From Cognatundibacterium aquatile (GTDB lineage: Bacteria > Pseudomonadota > Gammaproteobacteria > Burkholderiales > Burkholderiaceae_D), in the NCBI RefSeq assembly GCF_014699135.1, contig NZ_JACOFT010000001.1, positions 124,001-188,000 of the forward strand: a stretch of 64,000 nucleotides of DNA. The letters are read 5' to 3'. Within the stretch, counting starts at the first letter, position 1; every line of letters starts with the position of its first letter. Position numbers and translations under genes: made by a program. Of the stretch, positions 2,806 through 12,704 are shown one piece after another. Below the pieces are notes generated by a model. It did no database searches. It saw nothing but the letters and a program-made list of their open reading frames with translations, and was not told the DNA's origin.

Positions 2806-2973
2806 TTATGCACAAGCTATTACAAACATGTTTTCGAAGAAATTTTTCTTTATAGCAATCGATGAAAAATAAATTCAATGAAATCAATGAGTTGAAGGCT
2901 TATTTTGTTAACTGTATTTAACAATCAAAGCTAAATACTAAAATAGATAAAGCTATCCACAAAGTTATCCACA
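2806..2973 (+). promoter_or_regulatory. DnaA-box cluster upstream of hemE
   Basis: Inside a 438-base AT-rich gap there are three DnaA-box-like nonamers: TTATGCACA (2806-2814, fits TTATNCACA), CTATCCACA (2953-2961, one mismatch) and TTATCCACA (2965-2973, perfect). The last two are offset by exactly 12 bases. The 140 bases between the outer boxes are strongly AT-rich and hold an inverted repeat TTGTTAA/TTAACAA (2905-2924). A cluster of the same design lies upstream of priA. The motif matches are seen directly; the function (origin, DnaA titration or transcriptional control) is inferred. Confidence 0.7.
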
Positions 2974-3122
2974 ATTTATATTCATGGCATTACAGCCCTG
3001 TTGAGTCAATTGCGCAAGATCAGATGCCGTTCGATGCAGCTTAGGCGATAATGTCAGCTATTCCGAGATTTGCAATGTTTTCCGCATCTTCACAAAATTA
3101 AAACAGTGTTCTGAAAGTTAAC

Positions 3123-4214
3123 ATGTCCCACAATTTTGCTCCACTCAAAAACGATACCTTCATCAAAGCTCTGTTGCGCGAGGAGACTGAATATACGCCA
3201 TTGTGGCTGATGCGCCAGGCGGGCCGCTATTTGCCGGAATACCGCGCTACGCGCAAAGGCGCAGGTTCGTTTATGAGTCTGGCAAAGAATCCACAGTTCG
3301 CAACAGAAGTTACTTTGCAGCCGATAGACCGCTTTGCGTTGGATGCAGCTATCCTGTTTTCCGATATTCTGACCGTACCGGACGCGATGGGGCTGGGTCT
3401 TTACTTTGAAGAGGGCGAGGGACCGAAATTTGAACGGCCTTTAAAAGAAGAAAAAGACGTTCTGGCATTAAAAGTCCCTGAAGAAGGTAGCTTGCAATAC
3501 GTATTTGATGCCGTGACGCAGATTCGTACCGCGCTTGATGGCAGAGTACCGCTGATCGGCTTCTCGGGCAGCCCGTGGACACTGGCTTGCTACATGGTGG
3601 AAGGGCAGGGTTCACGTGAGTTCCACACAGTAAAAACCATGCTGTATAAGCGCCCAGACCTGATGCACCATATTTTGAGGGTCAACGCGGACGCTGTTGC
3701 CAGCTATTTAAATGCGCAAATCGATGCCGGGGCGCAGGCGGTGATGATTTTCGACAGCTGGGGTGGCGCGTTGGCGGATGCAGCTTATCAGGAGTTCTCA
3801 CTGAGCTACATGCAGGACATCGTCAATAAATTACAAAAAGAAAAAGACGGAAAACGTATCCCGGCGATTGTCTTTACCAAGGGTGGTGGTTTGTGGCTGG
3901 AAAAAATTGCAGCGATCGGTGCCGATGCAGTGGGTCTGGATTGGACCGTCAATCTTGGACAAGCGCGTGCCCGGGTCGGTGATAAGGTAGCGCTGCAGGG
4001 CAATCTTGACCCCGCGATTTTATTTGCAGAACCAGAGCAAATTCGTCAGCAGGTTATACAAACACTGGATAGTTACGGTACTCCTGCAGCGGGTCATGGG
4101 CATGTATTCAATCTTGGCCATGGAATTTCACAATTTACCTCACCGGATTCCGTGAGCGTCCTGGTCGAGACTGTGCACGAATACAGTCGCAGCCAGCGCC
4201 AAAAAGTAGCATAA
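3123..4214 (+). CDS. hemE: Uroporphyrinogen decarboxylase
   Basis: HemE removes four carboxyl groups from uroporphyrinogen III to give coproporphyrinogen III in haem synthesis, in the cytoplasm. The 363-residue protein carries both family signatures: [15 protein letters not shown] (27-41), which contains the substrate-binding arginines, and [17 protein letters not shown] (about 145-161). It also has the [17 protein letters not shown] segment with the catalytic Asp. Length is normal for the family. It stands alone between two AT-rich gaps rich in DnaA boxes, with a hairpin terminator downstream. Confidence 0.98.
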
Positions 4215-4277
4215 GTGCCGTATCTTGACGCTCAAATTTTGGCTTTGCACATTGGTTACGCATAACAAAATGAATAG

Positions 4278-4323
4278 AAAAGCAGGCATTTAAAACGTCA
4301 ATCAATTAACGATGCCTGCTTTT
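4278..4323 (+). terminator. Putative terminator after hemE
   Basis: AAAAGCAGGCAT (4278-4289) pairs with ATGCCTGCTTTT (4312-4323) across a 22-base AT-rich loop. The long loop makes it a less typical intrinsic terminator, but the arms are perfect and it is placed right after hemE. Confidence 0.6.
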
Positions 4324-4448
4324 GCTGATCAGCTCAGCATGTTGCTTTGCAAAACGTTGTATACACGCCCTTTTCAAGCCCAAAAACGATGGAAAACCAA
4401 GCTGTATAACGAGAGTTATTGTGTAAAACCAAGCTTGATTTATCTTAC

Positions 4449-4649
4449 TTATGCACAAATTCAGGGCAATTGAAAAAAACTTTAAAAAATATTTTTAAGT
4501 AAGCAAATGATTTTCCTAACTCATTGATTTTAAATGATAAATTAATTTGCCTTCAGAATAAGCATTTTGTTGAAACCCGCGTAAACCTTAGCAAAAAGCG
4601 ATGTCAATAGACCTTTACCCACAAAGTTATTCACAGAAATTGTGGATAA
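4449..4649 (+). promoter_or_regulatory. DnaA-box cluster upstream of priA
   Basis: Four DnaA-box-like nonamers occur: TTATGCACA (4449-4457), TTACCCACA (4615-4623, one mismatch), TTATTCACA (4627-4635, fits TTATNCACA) and TGTGGATAA (4641-4649, a perfect box on the other strand). The middle pair is offset by 12 bases, as in the hemE-upstream cluster, and shares the join ACAAAGTTAT. The DNA from 4458 to 4560 is very AT-rich. The cluster ends 60 bases before the priA start, so it could also act as a DnaA-controlled promoter. Confidence 0.7.
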
Positions 4650-4709: not shown

Positions 4710-6746
4710 GTGAACGCCATTTTCCTGCGTGTCGCGTTAGATACACCGCTTGACACTTTCTTTGATTACCGCTGGGTTTCCGCGACAGAAGAGGCGAATG
4801 CATCCAATCAGCCATCCATAGGGCAATTGGTGCTGGTACCGTTTGGTCGCCAGGAAATCACAGGTCTTATTGTTGATATAGTAGAAACAACAACGGTACC
4901 CGTAGATAAGTTGCGCGATGTGATCGCTGTGCGCCATGTGCTTCCTGCTTTGAACGCTGAATGGCTGGCGTTAATCAAGTTTGCGGCTGACTATTATCAG
5001 CGCCCTCTGGGAGAAGTCGCATTACCCGCCTTGCCTAAAAATTTAAAAGTAGCCAAAACCGTTTCTCTGGACAGGGCGCTGAAGAAATTAGGCAGATTAT
5101 CGTTCCCGCACGACGCTGCTCCACAAGACGAACCTGCGCTCAATGCTGAGCAGCAAGCGGCGGTCAACGCAATAACGCATACCCGCGAATTCAGTCCTTA
5201 TCTCTTGTTCGGCGTCACAGGGAGCGGAAAAACAGAAGTGTACTTGCAGTCTGCCGCCAGAATTCTTGCTGAGTCGGCAAGTGGGCAGATATTGATTCTG
5301 GTACCGGAAATTAATCTGACACCGCAATTTGAGGCGCGCATACGCGATCGCTTTCCCGGCCTACACTTGTCAACCTTGCATAGTGGTATGGCTGAGGGCG
5401 AACGCTTGTTGCACTGGCTGGCTGCGCATCAGGGGCAGGCTCGCATTGTCCTGGGGACGCGTTTGGCGATGCTGGCGTCGATGCCGGACTTAAGGCTGAT
5501 CATCGTTGATGAAGAGCACGACCCTTCTTATAAGCAACAGGAAGGTTTGCGTTATTCCGCGCGTGATCTGGCGATCTGGCGCGCACATCAATTGCGGATT
5601 CCTGTTGTGCTGGGATCGGCGACGCCATCGCTGGAGAGCTGGCATGGCGCGCAAAGTGGGCGCTATCGCTTGTTAGAGTTGCACGAACGCGCGGTCAAAG
5701 ACGCCGTGTTGCCCGTTGTTAAAATTATCAATCTGGAGCGTGAAAAACCCAGTGAAGGTTTAACCCCGCGATTAATTGCCGCGATACGTCAGCGTTTAGA
5801 GAAAGGTGAGCAGTCACTACTGTTTCTGAATCGGCGTGGCTACGCACCTGTACTAGCCTGTGATGCCTGCGGCTGGATCAGCAATTGCACTCGTTGTACT
5901 GCCAATCTGGTGTTGCACAAAGGCGACCATCGTCTGCGTTGCCATCACTGCGGGCTGGAGCAACGTATCCCCCGTTCTTGCCCGACGTGCGGCAATATTG
6001 ATTTACAACCGCTGGGTCGCGGCACGCAAAGGCTGGAAGAAACGCTGGCCAGTATTTTCCCGGAGGCGAGGGTATTTCGCATCGATGCTGATTCGACTCG
6101 TCTGAAAGGCAGTGCAGCCGCCGCCTTTGAGCGCGTGCACGATGGCGAGGTCGATATTCTGATTGGCACACAGATGGTTGCCAAGGGACACGACTTCAAG
6201 CGCCTGACTCTGGTTGCGGCTTTGAATCCGGATGCCGCTTTGTTTTCTCAGGATTATCGCGCCAGCGAGCGTTTGTTCGCACAACTGATGCAGGTATCGG
6301 GGCGTGCCGGCAGAACGGCGCAAAAGGAGGGTGGCAGCATCTCTGAAGTGCTGGTCCAGACGCGTTACCCTGATCATCCTTTGTATCACGCGTTGATGGC
6401 GCACAACTATCAGAGTTTCGCGACCGATTTATTGCAGGAACGCCAGCAGGCACAACTGCCGCCGTTTATGTATCAGGCTTTGTTGCGTGCCGAGGCGCGC
6501 GAGTTAGCAACGGCGATAGAATTTTTGCAGCAGGCAGCAAGCTGCACTCAACATACTGGCATCACGATCAATGATCCGATTCCCATGACCATGACCAGAG
6601 TTGCGAATGTTGACCGTGCCCAATTATTGGTTGAGTCGGTTTCTCGTCCGGCATTGCAGGCGTTTGTCAAAGAATGGATAGTGACTTTGCGGGCAATGAA
6701 AAGCCGGGTGAAGTGGTTGGTAGAAATTGATCCTGTGGATATCTGA
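4710..6746 (+). CDS. priA: Primosomal protein N' (replication restart helicase)
   Basis: PriA binds abandoned replication forks and reloads the replisome. The 678-residue protein has the N-terminal DNA-binding domain, the Walker A motif GVTGSGKT (168-175), the DEEH box (267-270), and the zinc-binding insertion with eight cysteines (384, 387, 393, 396, 411, 414, 424, 427). The helicase C-terminal motif QVSGRAGR is present. The start is GTG; no in-frame ATG fits the conserved N-terminus. The gene lies downstream of a DnaA-box cluster, which is notable for a replication-restart gene. Confidence 0.97.
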   Translation: MNAIFLRVALDTPLDTFFDYRWVSATEEANASNQPSIGQLVLVPFGRQEITGLIVDIVETTTVPVDKLRDVIAVRHVLPALNAEWLALIKFAADYYQRPLGEVALPALPKNLKVAKTVSLDRALKKLGRLSFPHDAAPQDEPALNAEQQAAVNAITHTREFSPYLLFGVTGSGKTEVYLQSAARILAESASGQILILVPEINLTPQFEARIRDRFPGLHLSTLHSGMAEGERLLHWLAAHQGQARIVLGTRLAMLASMPDLRLIIVDEEHDPSYKQQEGLRYSARDLAIWRAHQLRIPVVLGSATPSLESWHGAQSGRYRLLELHERAVKDAVLPVVKIINLEREKPSEGLTPRLIAAIRQRLEKGEQSLLFLNRRGYAPVLACDACGWISNCTRCTANLVLHKGDHRLRCHHCGLEQRIPRSCPTCGNIDLQPLGRGTQRLEETLASIFPEARVFRIDADSTRLKGSAAAAFERVHDGEVDILIGTQMVAKGHDFKRLTLVAALNPDAALFSQDYRASERLFAQLMQVSGRAGRTAQKEGGSISEVLVQTRYPDHPLYHALMAHNYQSFATDLLQERQQAQLPPFMYQALLRAEARELATAIEFLQQAASCTQHTGITINDPIPMTMTRVANVDRAQLLVESVSRPALQAFVKEWIVTLRAMKSRVKWLVEIDPVDI

Positions 6747-6900: not shown

Positions 6901-9900
6901 TCAGAAGCCGAAGCGTAAATCCAGTCGGAAGCTGTTGGCACGATAAGCATTGGCGCCCATCGATCCTAGCCACGCGAAGTTTGCTTGGAAACCACGACGG
7001 TTTTTGAAATTCAGCCCTAAACCTAAAGACTGAACATCTTCCGGAATACCTGTCACGATCGCGTTATACGTCGGACCATTCGCACCCATGTCAGAGTAAT
7101 ACACGGATTGATTGATATCGCCGCTGGTGCGGTGTGACAGTTGCAGCTTCAGTGAAGGTGTTACCTGACCGCTGGCAAAGAAATAGTCTTTAAAGATATC
7201 CACACCACCAGTGACGGTGGAATTGGTAAAGCTGCTATCTTTAAAGGTTAATGCCATCGGACTACCTTGTTCTGAGTAGCTATCCAGTTTGACGTTGATT
7301 ACGTCGACGCGACCAAATGGATGTACACGGAACTGTTGCAGAATCAATTCGCGTGTCAGGCTCAGTGAACCGTAAATGATCTTACCTTTGCGGTCACCAG
7401 ACAACAGGACATTATTGTTACTGTCCCAACGGCGATTGTCGTAGGTCACATGACCGGCACCAAGTACGCCATCAACAAACCAATGTTTTTCTGGTTTGTA
7501 AGTTGCATACAGCGAGCCAGACCATTGTTTTGCTTTACTTTCACTACCAAGATTATCAAAAGTAGCGTTGTCTTTAGCGTAGCCTAATGAGCCACCGGCA
7601 ATCAACTTAGAATTGACCATTACGTCCATACCCAGCGTCAGACCTGCACTGGAGAATTTAGTACGGGAACCATCCTGTGCATCCAGAGAGCCGACGTCGA
7701 TATTACCCGCAGTCCAGAAGCCTGCTGGCATACCGGCAATCCGTGGAACATCATCGCTGATGACCGGTTCTTGATCAGCTTCATCGTCTTTCGCAATGCG
7801 TTTCTCTTTCTGATGGGCCGTACCGTCCTGAGCAAATGGCGCTCTTGCGCGGCGTTGATTTTCCGCCGTTTTCACTGTTCCGAATTCTCCGGCAAGAACA
7901 TCTTTCTCTTGAGTGCCACTGAAATTATCCAGAATTTTTCCACCGACCAGGCGCAAAGTATCCAGATACGGCACATTCAGACCAGCCCCGAAACGGTTAC
8001 GGATATTAAAGTCATTATGCAGAATCTGTACGTGGTAATAGATGTTGCTCATCTGTGCCACAGTAAAGCGTTGTGTTGTCGTTGCTTGCGAAACGATATT
8101 TTGTTTCACCAGCGGATTGTTTACCGGATCAGGTCGGGCATTGACGTTCACAACAATGGCACCACTGGTGGAGCTGGCCAGATTGGCATCACCAGAATAC
8201 ACCACGGTCAGACTGTGGCTGCCGACGGCGAGAGTACTGGTCGTCAGACTTGCAACGCCCGCACTGAGATTCACTTTCGCGATCAGAGTCGTGCCATCCA
8301 TAAAACTGGCGCTTCCCGTTGCCGCGCCAGGATTAACAGTCGCGGTCAGATTGACACTTTGCCCCAGCATAGGATTTAGTGAAGAGCTCGCCAGAGTGAC
8401 GCTGGACGTTGCCATATTCAAGACTTGAATACTGACCGTTGCCGTTGCCGCACTGTAGTTAGCATCTGCTGCCTTAGTCACTGTGACGACGCAGGTTTCT
8501 GCAACACTGCCTGCAGTAACCACATTGCCAGCAACTGAGCAAGTACCCGTTGTGACTGCAGTACTGATGGCGCCGGTACCAGAGCCGCCAGTTGTGGTCA
8601 GTGTTGCTGTACCTGTCACCTTAAAGATGCTTGATTTATCGCTGACGACTCTGAGTGTCGCTTGCGCATTTTTACCAACCGTCAGCACGTAAGTCTGCGT
8701 TGCCTGAGCATTCACCCCGGCGACTGCTGCTTGCGTCGCCGTGATCGTACTCGTACCGGCGCTGACAGTAGTGATTGCGCCATTTGCACTCACGGTAGCG
8801 ACGGCAGTGTTTGAACTGCTGTAACTGATCGCTCCGTAACTACCACCCGTCAGGGTTGATGTTGCAGGATTAGTCAGCGTACCTCCCATCACGACCGTTG
8901 CTGCATTTGGTGTAGTGAAACTCAGGATACCAACCGGCAGAGGTGCAACTGTCAGTGTATAGGTTTGTGTCGCCTGGTCGTTCATACCAGGCACAGCAGC
9001 TTGCGTTGCCGTTATGGTGCTTGAGCCGGGGCTGACCGATGTCACGACACCGGCCGCATTCACCGTTGCCACGGCATTATTCGAACTGCTGTAACTGATG
9101 GCACCAAAGCCGCCACCGCTCAAAGTTGACGTTGCAACGTTTGTGAAGCTCGAACCCATCGTGACCAGTGCGGCGCCCGGTTTGGCAAACGTCAGCACGC
9201 CAACTGGCAAAGGACTGATGGTGAACGATTGCGTCGCCGTTGTCGCTGCTGCGAAGTTCGTGTTACCAGCTTGATTAACATTGATGGTACAGACACCCGC
9301 AGAGATAGAGGACACAACACCTCCCGGGGTTACTGAGCAAACACCGGGTGTTGATGATGTGAATGTGACCGTTAAACCGGAAGAGGCGCTGGCTGTCAAT
9401 GTCAATGCCGTTCCGAGAGTTTGTGTACCGGGATTGCCAAACGTAATGGTCTGAGGTGCTTTTGGCGTGACTGCGGTAGACGCCGTTGATGCGGCTCCAG
9501 TACCTGCCAGATTGGTTGCCGTGACTGTGAAAGTGTATGGCGTTCCGTTTGTCAGGCCAGTGACGACCAATGGGCTGGTCGCACCGCTGACAGACGCACC
9601 ACCGGGGCTTGCAGTGACCGTGTAACCTGTGATCGCGCTACCCCCATTAAATACCGGTGCAGTAAAGGCGACAGACACTTGGGCGGCTCCGGCAGTGCCT
9701 ACGGCACCGGTAGGCGCACCAGGTACAACAGGATTTACGGCAAATGTTCTGCTGATCGTCGTTGCTACCCCATACGTGCCGTCTCCGGCCTGATCCGCAT
9801 TAATTATACAAGTGCCAGTCGTGACGAACGTCAACGCACCACCGGAAGTAATAGTACAGACACCAGTTGTTGAGGAGGTGAATGTTGGTATCAGACCGGA

Positions 9901-12342
9901 AGAAGCCGTAGCGGACAAGGTTGGTGTTGTGCCAAAAGCCTGACCACCGGGAGGGTTAAAGGTAATGGTTTGCGCTGCCTTAGGCGTCACTGCCGTGGAT
10001 GCGGTAGACGCCGCGCCAGTACCTGCCAGATTGGTTGCCGTCACTGTGAAAGTGTATGGCGTTCCGTTTGTCAGGCCGGTGACGACCAATGGGCTGGTCG
10101 CCCCGCTGACATTCGCGCCACCGGGGCTCGCAGTCACCGTGTAGCCTGTGACGGCGCTGCCGCCGTTGTAAGCCGGTGCCGTAAAGGCCACGGATACTTG
10201 TCCACCTCCGGCTGTACCAACGGCACCGGTTGGGGCACCTGGAACAGTCGCATTAACCGCAAATGTTCTGCCGACGGTAGTCGCTGCCAGGTATGTGCCG
10301 TTACCAGCCTGATCGGCGTTAATCGTACAAGAGCCTGCCGTAACAAACGTCAACGCACCACCGGAAGTGACTGTACAGACCCCGGTTGTTGTGGAGGTGA
10401 AACTCACAGCTAAGGTGGAACTGGCGGTTGCCGTCAAGGTCGGTGTCGTGCCAAAAGTCTGTGCACCGGGAGGGTTAAAGGTAATGGTTTGTGCAGCTTT
10501 AGGCGTGACTGCAGAAGACGCCGTGGATGCCGAACCGGAGCCAGCCGAGTTTCTGGCGGTCACAGTAAAAGTATAAGCAGTTCCGTTTAACAGACCAGTG
10601 ACGTTCAGCGGACTGGCTGCACCGGTAGCCGTGGCTCCGCCGGGGCTGGCAGTCACCGTATAGTCAAGAATAGCACTGCCGCCATTGGAAGCTGGTGCGG
10701 TGAAGGCGACGGAGACCTGAGTGTCTCCTGGTGTACCGACCGCAGCCGTTGGTGCTCCCGGAACAATGGCGTTGACAGTAAAAGTTTGTGGAACCGTTGC
10801 TGCTGCTGAAAAGGCAGCATTACCAGCCTGATCGGCATTAATCGTACAAGAGCCTGCCGTAACAAACGTCAACGCACCACCGGAAGTGATCGTACAGACG
10901 CCGGTTGTCGTTGATGTGAATGTCGGCGTCAGACCAGAAGAAGCCGTAGCTGTCAAGGTCGGTGTCGTGCCAAAAGTCTGTGCCCCGGGAGGGTTAAAGG
11001 TAATGGTTTGCGGTGCCTTAGGCGTGACTGCAGAGGACGCCGTGGATGCCGAACCGGAGCCAGCCGAGTTTCTGGCGGTCACAGTAAAAGTATAAGCAGT
11101 TCCGTTTAACAGACCAGTGACGTTCAGCGGACTGGCTGCACCGGTAGCCGTGGCTCCGCCGGGGCTGGCCGTGACCGTATAGTCAAGAATAGCGCTGCCG
11201 CCATTGGAAGCTGGTGCGGTGAAGGCGACGGAGACCTGAGTGTCCCCAGCGGTGCCGGCTGCTGCCGTTGGTGCCCCCGGAGCAATGGCGTTGACAGTAA
11301 AGGTTTGCGGAACCGTTGCTGCTGCCGAGTATGTCGTATTACCAGCCTGATCGGCATTAATCGTACAAGACCCTGCCGTGACAAACGTCAAAGCACCACC
11401 GGAAGTGATCGTACAGACGCCGGTTGTCGTTGATGTGAATGTCGGCGTCAGACCAGAAGAAGCCGTAGCCGTCAAGGTCGGTGTCGTGCCAAAAGTCTGT
11501 GCACCGGGAGGGTTAAAGGTAATGGTTTGCGTTGCCTTAGGCGTGACCGCCGTGGACGCGGAAGACGCAGTACCAGAGCCATTGGCATTTCTTGCCGTGA
11601 CCGTGAAAGTATATGACGTTCCGTTTGTCAGCCCCGTCACTGCCAGCGGACTGCCCGCGCCGGTAGCAGTAAAGCCGCCGGGACTAGATGTGACGGTATA
11701 GTCAAGAATGGCACTACCGCCATCGGAGGCGGGAGCCGTAAAGGCAACCGACGCTTGCCCACTTCCTGGCGTAGCGGTAACACCTGTTGGTGCTCCGGGT
11801 ACGGGCGCAACTACTGTGACGTTGACCGTATAAGGAGAACCGTTGAAATCGTAGAAAACAAATGAATCTGGTCCAGAGTAGCCATTTGGCGGCGTGTAAT
11901 AGAACGCATCAATATTGGTCGGTCCTGTGGAACCACCGATCGACATGATGAAAACGTTGTTGGTTCCATGCGCACTCGACGACGGGAAAGTCTTGTTACC
12001 GGCGCTATTCTGGTTGCCTATGGCATCGACGTAAATACCCAGACTGGCACCAGTTCCATCCGTTTTTCCGCCCGGATCACAGTTCGCATAATCTGTCGTT
12101 GAAAACGTATATTTATATTCACTGCCACTTTGCGTGACCTGCCCACCTACAGTCGTCGAAAAACTGAGATTACAAGCAGCAGATGCTTGTCCATAGGCCA
12201 GCAAGGAAAAAATCAGCAGCATCAGTTGGACTAAGCCGCGCAGCATCTGTTTTTGTAAGGTGAATAAAAGCAGGCTGCACCATGTGGGATAGCGCATTCT
12301 TTCTGCCTGGCTGGCGGGATCATGGCTGGGATATATCGTCAT
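6901..12342 (-). CDS. Giant Fn3/Ig-repeat autotransporter adhesin
   Basis: This 1813-residue surface protein is predicted to be exported by Sec and to insert its C-terminus in the outer membrane. A long signal peptide (hydrophobic core about 35-50, cleavage near AYGQASA) is followed by an Ig-like domain ending in the YTPPNGYSGPDSFVF motif. Five units of one Fn3 domain (starting PGAPT) plus one Ig-like domain (starting QTITF) follow, with a period of about 173 residues. Next come two BIG2-like repeats (AISYSSSN.AVATV), one related domain, one Big_3-type domain (VTLASSSLNPMLGQSV), a charged linker, and a C-terminal autotransporter barrel of about 270 residues ending in LDLRFGF. The ATG at 12342 was chosen because GAGGAAAAA lies just upstream; a TTG start 123 bases further up has no such site. 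The ligand is unknown. Confidence 0.88.
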   Translation of the reverse strand: MTIYPSHDPASQAERMRYPTWCSLLLFTLQKQMLRGLVQLMLLIFSLLAYGQASAACNLSFSTTVGGQVTQSGSEYKYTFSTTDYANCDPGGKTDGTGASLGIYVDAIGNQNSAGNKTFPSSSAHGTNNVFIMSIGGSTGPTNIDAFYYTPPNGYSGPDSFVFYDFNGSPYTVNVTVVAPVPGAPTGVTATPGSGQASVAFTAPASDGGSAILDYTVTSSPGGFTATGAGSPLAVTGLTNGTSYTFTVTARNANGSGTASSASTAVTPKATQTITFNPPGAQTFGTTPTLTATASSGLTPTFTSTTTGVCTITSGGALTFVTAGSCTINADQAGNTTYSAAATVPQTFTVNAIAPGAPTAAAGTAGDTQVSVAFTAPASNGGSAILDYTVTASPGGATATGAASPLNVTGLLNGTAYTFTVTARNSAGSGSASTASSAVTPKAPQTITFNPPGAQTFGTTPTLTATASSGLTPTFTSTTTGVCTITSGGALTFVTAGSCTINADQAGNAAFSAAATVPQTFTVNAIVPGAPTAAVGTPGDTQVSVAFTAPASNGGSAILDYTVTASPGGATATGAASPLNVTGLLNGTAYTFTVTARNSAGSGSASTASSAVTPKAAQTITFNPPGAQTFGTTPTLTATASSTLAVSFTSTTTGVCTVTSGGALTFVTAGSCTINADQAGNGTYLAATTVGRTFAVNATVPGAPTGAVGTAGGGQVSVAFTAPAYNGGSAVTGYTVTASPGGANVSGATSPLVVTGLTNGTPYTFTVTATNLAGTGAASTASTAVTPKAAQTITFNPPGGQAFGTTPTLSATASSGLIPTFTSSTTGVCTITSGGALTFVTTGTCIINADQAGDGTYGVATTISRTFAVNPVVPGAPTGAVGTAGAAQVSVAFTAPVFNGGSAITGYTVTASPGGASVSGATSPLVVTGLTNGTPYTFTVTATNLAGTGAASTASTAVTPKAPQTITFGNPGTQTLGTALTLTASASSGLTVTFTSSTPGVCSVTPGGVVSSISAGVCTINVNQAGNTNFAAATTATQSFTISPLPVGVLTFAKPGAALVTMGSSFTNVATSTLSGGGFGAISYSSSNNAVATVNAAGVVTSVSPGSSTITATQAAVPGMNDQATQTYTLTVAPLPVGILSFTTPNAATVVMGGTLTNPATSTLTGGSYGAISYSSSNTAVATVSANGAITTVSAGTSTITATQAAVAGVNAQATQTYVLTVGKNAQATLRVVSDKSSIFKVTGTATLTTTGGSGTGAISTAVTTGTCSVAGNVVTAGSVAETCVVTVTKAADANYSAATATVSIQVLNMATSSVTLASSSLNPMLGQSVNLTATVNPGAATGSASFMDGTTLIAKVNLSAGVASLTTSTLAVGSHSLTVVYSGDANLASSTSGAIVVNVNARPDPVNNPLVKQNIVSQATTTQRFTVAQMSNIYYHVQILHNDFNIRNRFGAGLNVPYLDTLRLVGGKILDNFSGTQEKDVLAGEFGTVKTAENQRRARAPFAQDGTAHQKEKRIAKDDEADQEPVISDDVPRIAGMPAGFWTAGNIDVGSLDAQDGSRTKFSSAGLTLGMDVMVNSKLIAGGSLGYAKDNATFDNLGSESKAKQWSGSLYATYKPEKHWFVDGVLGAGHVTYDNRRWDSNNNVLLSGDRKGKIIYGSLSLTRELILQQFRVHPFGRVDVINVKLDSYSEQGSPMALTFKDSSFTNSTVTGGVDIFKDYFFASGQVTPSLKLQLSHRTSGDINQSVYYSDMGANGPTYNAIVTGIPEDVQSLGLGLNFKNRRGFQANFAWLGSMGANAYRANSFRLDLRFGF
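9440..11790 (-). repeat. Intragenic tandem repeats (about 519 bp period)
   Basis: The Fn3+Ig units of the autotransporter gene repeat at DNA level with a period near 519 bases. The stretches starting at 10511 and 11030 are nearly identical over more than 200 bases, with only a few mostly silent changes, while other units are more diverged. This points to recent duplication or gene conversion and makes the locus prone to changes in copy number. Confidence 0.85.
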
Positions 12343-12704
12343 TTTTTCCTCGGGGATGTTCCGTGTTGATTGACTGGTAATGGGTGATGCCGATTGGGAT
12401 TGAAATATTCTGAAGCAGAGAATCGGATTGCTGATAATTGCCTGAAATAAACTTTTCCTTGACAAAAAGTGATTTATTAGGCAATTGTTAGCGACGGTAA
12501 TATTTTAGCCACATTGCACAAAAAAAAGGCAAATTAAAAAATGAATTGCCTATAAGTGTGTTCTTTTCGCCTCTTTAGTCTGAATAGATGATTGACGAAA
12601 ATTTATTTTGAGCGAATTATGTTTGTTGCAAAAAAATAAAAATTGCCAATAGTGGTCAGTGTCAGCACTTTTTTAACCGTCAGCACCTCTTTAAGGAGAA
12701 AACT
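12343..12704. promoter_or_regulatory. Divergent intergenic region, autotransporter and collar genes
   Basis: This 362-base AT-rich gap must hold the promoters for both the autotransporter gene (leftward) and the collar-gene operon (rightward). It contains no credible ORF. Several A/T tracts are present between 12500 and 12650. I could not assign a firm -35/-10 pair or an operator. Confidence 0.4.

Follow-up and report, generated by a model that had tools for sequence, protein, structure and literature searches.

Both intergenic gaps beside the hemE gene of Cognatundibacterium aquatile carry a distal DnaA box, an AT-rich spacer and a pair of further DnaA boxes. The question raised by this locus is what such a repeated arrangement does: whether it is an origin of replication, a place where DnaA is taken up, a switch for the adjacent genes, or a site that resets the nucleotide bound to DnaA. 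The window analysed is a 64,000-nucleotide stretch (C1:124001-188000) of a 3.9-Mb genome in 17 contigs, and positions given without a contig label are those of the window. Its HemE protein shows 99% identity to the HemE of Undibacterium rivi.

DnaA boxes and predicted IHF sites around hemE

The module upstream of hemE (module B, 2806-2973) has its boxes on the plus strand: the distal box TTATGCACA (2806..2814), box III CTATCCACA (2953..2961, one mismatch) and box II TTATCCACA (2965..2973), with the distal box 159 bp before box II. The hemE gene follows (3123..4214, plus strand, 363 aa; Pfam URO-D, uroporphyrinogen decarboxylase), and downstream of it is module A (4449-4649), with a plus-strand distal box TTATGCACA (4449..4457, 178 bp before box II), box III TTACCCACA (4615..4623, one mismatch) and box II TTATTCACA (4627..4635), and a minus-strand box I, TTATCCACA (4641..4649), which is paired head-to-head with box II at a spacing of 14, as in DARS. 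The priA gene (4710..6746, plus strand, 678 aa, listed start GTG; Pfam PriA_3primeBD, DEAD and PriA_C) starts 60 bp from box I. Each spacer contains a predicted IHF site that matches the consensus without mismatches. That of module B, AATCAATGAGTTG (WATCAANNNNTTR) at 2882..2894, lies 83 bp before box II on the plus strand, whereas A-type modules use the opposite strand; that of module A, AATCAATGAGTTA at 4517..4529, lies 110 bp before box II on the minus strand. The gene for IHF-alpha is present in this genome. Further along the window, the minus strand of 6901-12465 holds a repetitive 1854-aa open reading frame with fibronectin-like repeats and, by eye, an autotransporter-like C-terminal end.

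All seven boxes listed in the first-pass annotation were confirmed in the sequence, and the 12-base offset within each pair and the shared join ACAAAGTTAT are exact. The spacers had been described as AT-rich and about 150-165 bases long; they are indeed AT-rich (24% and 28% G+C, compared with 51.8% for the window), but their lengths are 138 and 157 bases. The boxes of the modules had thus been recognised correctly, while the IHF consensus sites and the meaning of the reverse-box spacing had been missed.

Strict TTATNCACA boxes are concentrated at hemE, with five in 1.85 kb compared with 146 in the whole 3.9-Mb genome (about one per 27 kb). When they were counted per 2 kb over the first 0.8 Mb of C1, the hemE locus (five) was exceeded only by the probable oriC (six). 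If one mismatch is permitted, 65 boxes are counted in the whole window against 49 expected, a number reached by none of 100 shuffles. The genome has two copies of the paired-box string CCACAAAGTTWTNCACA, and both are at the hemE locus; within the order, 112 of 399 genomes contain the string, and no match was noticed among the rows of the backwards control.

Likeness of module A to the DARS elements of E. coli

The core of a DARS consists of three DnaA boxes, with box I opposite to boxes II and III, in a spacing common to DARS1 and DARS2 (PMC5742627), and the head-to-head arrangement of boxes I and II is described as characteristic of these elements (PMC10380432). Boxes I and II are thought to make ADP-DnaA lose its ADP, box III helps, and IHF together with Fis activates DARS2 (PMC10380432, PMC5742627, PMC4245941). 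Read on the minus strand, module A has the sequence TTATCCACA-5 bases-TGTGAATAA-3 bases-TGTGGGTAA, that is, box I followed by boxes II and III in the opposite orientation, with steps of 14 and 12 as in both E. coli DARS. Module A differs from a consensus of this geometric core at one position, DARS1 at two and DARS2 at three. It is the best core match of its genome, and elsewhere in the first 0.8 Mb of C1 there is none with four or fewer mismatches.

A profile (R1) was built from 42 sequences, 26 of them from genomes of a 377-genome sample of the class; module A was included and none came from E. coli. Its match to module A, from box I to the IHF site (4517..4649, minus strand), scores 74.5 bits, the sequence itself being one of the 42, and module B scores 21.1 bits. 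In E. coli the profile found DARS1 (31.2 bits, E 2e-8) and DARS2 (23.0 bits, E 7e-6), the E-values being rough. DARS1, located between bioD and uvrB, has the same I/II/III steps and the same orientation as module A, with a spacer ATTCC against ATTTC. The two differ in that the scanned DARS1 gap has no IHF consensus with one mismatch or fewer, whereas module A has one, and in that DARS1 lies about 0.33 of the genome from oriC (core position from a sequence scan; oriC at 3.92 Mb according to PMC5742627), whereas module A is 34 kb from the probable oriC.

The DARS2 core was found in the rppH-mutH gap of E. coli, in agreement with the deletion primers given in PMC4585315, and was not found in the mutH-ygdR gap. 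It shares the core geometry of module A and likewise has its IHF sites beyond box III. By our own placing, IBS1 is at 83 on the plus strand and IBS2 at 99 on the minus strand, with one mismatch each, which agrees with the reported separation of 3 bp (PMC4245941). The single IHF consensus of module A, at 110, is 11 bp beyond the position of IBS2, or about one helical turn. When the IHF sites of DARS2 were shifted outward, 10 bp was tolerated better than 5 bp, and both inward shifts were harmful (PMC4245941). Module B has its IHF consensus at 83, like IBS1, but lacks box I. DARS2 has no same-direction distal box at the position usual for the modules.

The gaps around hemE were compared in related genomes. 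From 555 HemE loci of named genomes the best 80 were kept, and a module, defined here by a distal box, an AT-rich spacer and paired boxes, was present at least once in 72 of these 80; the boxes are therefore conserved in relatives. None was found in the other eight (L081, L110, L116, L120, L122, L123, L124 and L125), of which L081 has a sequence that stops 23 bases past the match. With the two of the window, the 107 modules from these loci give a set of 109. In 88 of the 109, the A type, the minus strand carries an IHF consensus (from PMC4245941, one mismatch or fewer) at an offset of 107-111 bp ahead of box II; other offsets have a mean of 0.14 modules each. Box I, with up to two mismatches, is present in 71 of the 88 A-type modules. 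The distal box, with up to one mismatch, was seen in all 109 at 155-199 bp, most commonly at 159-160, 165, 177 and 187-188.

A strict pattern of boxes II and III followed by the IHF consensus in the set range was found in at least 100 of 377 genomes of the class, and no match was noticed among the rows of the backwards control. Thirty class-wide pattern loci were fetched, one of them too short for the distal scan; of the 29 counted, 23 have box I and 24 have, at 185-192 bp, a distal box that formed no part of the query. The profile reached E 1e-4 or better in 342 of the 377 genomes, where the E-values are rough and weak matches are uncertain and may be other box clusters. At the same threshold it matched 215 of 299 genomes in a sample of the phylum, some outside the class, mostly with lower scores and with origin-like box clusters not separated from modules. 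In many modules of the class a weakly conserved AAATTG...AAATTTTAA lies between box III and the IHF site (alignment A1, columns ~85-105), and may be bound by another protein. According to a review, many proteobacteria have conserved sequences like DARS1 and DARS2 (PMC10380432). The range reported in other papers differs, the DARS2 core being placed in E. coli-related gamma-proteobacteria by PMC4245941, while PMC5742627 names beta- or gamma-proteobacteria.

Species of Undibacterium mostly have one module on each side of hemE. Two modules lie downstream of hemE in Noviherbaspirillum, Paucimonas, Herbaspirillum and several Duganella and Rugamonas, among other Oxalobacteraceae. Nineteen of the 109 modules, all from Undibacterium or close relatives, form a B type with the IHF consensus on the plus strand at 82-84 bp, and box I with up to two mismatches is found in none of the 19. 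No module belongs to both types, and two belong to neither. Module B of the window is of the B type: at the position expected for a DARS box I (2979..2987, minus strand) there are four mismatches to TTATNCACA, and the box was scored absent. Module B is a derived type, seen only in Undibacterium and close relatives. In U. curvum, U. crateris and U. rugosum module B is kept and the core of A is missing, which indicates that some species can do without A. Several Duganella, Massilia and Pseudoduganella have a second downstream copy without box I in which the IHF site is unchanged, so the loss of box I is not always tied to the IHF flip.

The steps of the core, the distance of the IHF consensus, the distal box, the R1 match to DARS1 and DARS2 and the class-wide relatives together suggest that module A is probably a DARS-type element, and that module B is a diverged copy without box I that resembles datA and more likely holds or inactivates DnaA. 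At the level of sequence, module A has the core geometry of a DARS, similarity to the known DARS, and an IHF consensus at a set distance, 11 bp off that of IBS2. The B-type modules, which lack the head-to-head box I in all 19 cases, are not classed as DARS. In the DARS-type reading, ADP-DnaA would bind boxes I-III of module A, IHF would bend the DNA, and the head-to-head pair of boxes I and II would make DnaA release its ADP; the released DnaA could then reload with ATP and enlarge the initiation-competent pool. Module B keeps the distal box and boxes III and II, and with box I gone and the IHF consensus on the other strand at another distance, it should not act as a DARS; that it opposes module A is a guess. 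The probable origin is about 34 kb away, so that the copy number of both modules would double early after initiation.

Several observations weigh against the DARS-type reading. DARS2 also needs Fis sites, and the likeness of module A to it is one of boxes and IHF consensus. DARS1 and DARS2 are far from oriC, while module A would lie beside it, where datA-like elements are expected. Eight of the 80 HemE loci have no module, and three Undibacterium species have no A core. The linkage to priA and the orientation there would also fit a role in cis.

Neighbouring genes, titration and the position of the origin

The alternative that survives best is that DnaA and IHF bound at the module control priA, and in Undibacterium also hemE, coupling replication restart to DnaA activity, with any DARS activity being secondary; this is possible, although we think it somewhat unlikely. 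PriA adjoins the module in 12 of the 30 class-wide pattern loci, and in all 12 box I faces priA, 11-186 bp upstream, a constant orientation that makes a role in cis possible. PriA is also the neighbour in 18 of the 30 best profile loci, 11 of which repeat pattern loci, and pooling both sets gives 49 distinct places with PriA at 23. Such an orientation could, however, persist by shared ancestry alone, and the distance is variable: in the HemE loci, where a PriA start was located in 76 of 80 and a module within 1.5 kb of that start in 68, box II is 22-170 bp from the start in 58 of the 68 and 250-479 bp in the other 10.

Modules are also found beside other genes. In one locus (L300, from genome G634) the module is upstream of uvrB, identified by tblastn, with its IHF side towards uvrB as is the box III side in DARS1. 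Other neighbours are xseA, shikimate dehydrogenase, HemN/HemW-type radical-SAM and aspartokinase-type genes, one example of each being named from a Pfam scan, and a MutY-like gene. A second UvrB neighbour (L366) was not counted, as only the 3' end of the gene is present, about 0.6 kb from the module, nor was a second MutY neighbour (L371), a weak match of 28% at E 2e-9. The priA-rpmE gap of E. coli has no module and a single box-like site, GTATACACA. This variety of gene contexts argues for an element acting in trans.

For hemE the case in cis is weaker still. A scan of the 4 kb upstream of hemE found no module B in U. flavidum, U. fentianense or isolate nzgw559, and in U. seohonense it lies about 3.3 kb upstream of hemE; both results count against hemE being the gene it serves. 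The DnaA-controlled switch for hemE put forward in the first-pass annotation is therefore weakly supported, hemE not being a constant neighbour.

Sorting of 30 fetched loci, out of 52 places in the genus, put 13 at hemE-priA and 17 at xseA. The xseA locus of the present genome carries six DARS-like cores in tandem (C11:513455-514394; L310:5456-6395) with repeated IHF-like sites, flanked by xseA and a MotA/TolQ/ExbB-type gene (XseA and ExbB by Pfam). The second-best core of the genome is in this array (C11:513551-513585) and is followed by five more with four or fewer mismatches, at steps of 139-182 bases. All 17 xseA loci fetched from the genus have DARS-like cores, 2 to 8 of them within about 3 kb when both strands are counted. 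Where a single contig spans both the xseA module and the origin-like site, as in five genomes, 0.30-0.345 of the genome separates them; in four of these the module and hemE are on opposite sides of the origin-like site, and in the fifth they share a side. For E. coli DARS1 the distance to oriC is about 0.33.

It is unlikely that both modules instead take up ATP-DnaA once replicated and so lower initiation, either by inactivation as at datA or by plain titration, although their position would suit this. The hemE module is 0.007-0.020 of the genome from the origin-like site in seven genomes of the genus (two measured by the hemE gene), and datA too is near oriC, with its essential boxes all in one direction (PMC5742627). 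The boxes of module B also share one direction, and its layout of box, IHF site and box resembles datA, with 159 bp compared with 162 bp between boxes 2 and 3 of datA. Against this, module A contains the head-to-head pair of boxes I and II, the hallmark of DARS (PMC10380432), and module B and datA have their IHF sites on opposite strands, at 83 and 97 bp respectively. The profile also scores datA weakly and in part, with 15.4 bits (E 0.0016) over box 2 and 7.2 bits (E 0.59), in the right register, from the IBS to box 3. Given these weak or partial matches, the modules are perhaps kin to datA. The earlier suggestion of a DnaA-titrating locus thus appears sound in kind, as a locus controlling DnaA, but not as plain titration, the anatomy being that of DARS-type nucleotide exchange.

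That the flanks of hemE are an origin, or one half of a split origin as first proposed, is highly improbable, because the cumulative skew minimum of a complete congener (G037) lies at a separate box cluster, the third-position skew of the present contig turns near 90-100 kb and not at 127 kb, and the conserved origin-like cluster is 33-46 kb from hemE in six genomes and 91 kb in a seventh (G005); this holds despite the AT-rich spacers in both modules, a box density nearly that of the probable oriC, and the precedent of Caulobacter and Rickettsia, in which the chromosome origin is linked to hemE.

The probable oriC, about 34 kb from hemE (127 kb) and away from both mnmG and dnaA (C1:249.4-250.8 kb), is an AT-rich gap at C1:92.6-93.5 kb (L015:12600-13500) in which five strict boxes fall within 0.7 kb. 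It contains two stretches about 520 bases apart which, by eye, we take to resemble a bacterial unwinding layout of DnaA box, GC-richer bases and TAG-type trinucleotides. A 901-base query from this site matched 42 of the 43 genus genomes, several of these matches being short, and in 33 of the 43 the match is in two or three pieces about 0.5-1.1 kb apart. Between this site and mnmG, two strict TTATCCACA boxes lie in tandem on the minus strand at C1:100778-100796, with starts 10 bases apart.

The first-pass annotation had expected the origin near dnaA in this betaproteobacterium, and had posed hemE or dnaA as the place of the skew minimum; it is at neither in G037. Over 1.185-1.585 Mb of that genome the cumulative skew has its minimum at about 1.389 Mb and stays flat to 1.397 Mb, close to the box-rich oriC homologue at 1.385 Mb, which is 33 kb from hemE (1.353 Mb) and 152 kb from dnaA (1.233 Mb). 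Skew was also sampled in 20-kb pieces around the chromosome. Of 40 samples, five show a sign opposite to that predicted by an origin at 1.385 Mb: those at 1.245, 1.265, 1.425 and 1.525 Mb, which belong to the set of 20 contiguous samples, and one at 1.12 Mb. Near dnaA there is a shallow local dip at 1.245 Mb (-1093, compared with -3011 at 1.395 Mb), and an origin at dnaA was rejected, the skew minimum and the box-rich site being elsewhere. In seven genomes of the genus, dnaA is 83 to 442 kb from the origin-like site. The skew of the present contig is flatter, with a minimum within 0.8 Mb near 69-77 kb, and its third-position turn has exceptions at 70 and 140 kb. KOPS-like motifs on this contig show no sharp switch.

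Proposed DnaA control modules in Undibacterium and the wider class

The locus would represent a betaproteobacterial DARS-type element that is proximal to the origin, linked to priA, and accompanied by a diverged partner across hemE. The literature searched, which did not include the founding DARS study (Fujimitsu 2009), gave no description of such elements in Burkholderiales or at priA; the presence of the family in this group may already be in print. In E. coli, the relative distances of the DARS and of datA to oriC are conserved among strains, and DARS2 works at an equal distance on the other arm (PMC5010248).

A wider proposal, which is speculative and may well not hold, is that the module of boxes I, II and III, IHF site and distal box is an ancestral element for DnaA control in the class, placed by preference just upstream of priA, and that DARS1, DARS2 and perhaps datA are its relocated and pruned relatives. 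Undibacterium would then have, next to each other near the origin, module A as a recharger set against module B, an opponent without box I and with the IHF site flipped, together with the xseA array about one third of the genome away, on the opposite arm in four of five genomes.

DARS and datA, known chiefly from work on E. coli, contribute to the timing of replication. With the R1 profile, DARS-like modules can be picked out from sequence across much of the class, and the age of this form of control can now be asked. A further question is why such modules are so often seated by genes of replication and repair (priA, xseA, uvrB and mutY-like genes here; uvrB and mutH in E. coli). Another is whether the loss of a single box turns a recharging site into its opposite, and for this Undibacterium would offer a natural pair, with both layouts on either side of hemE.
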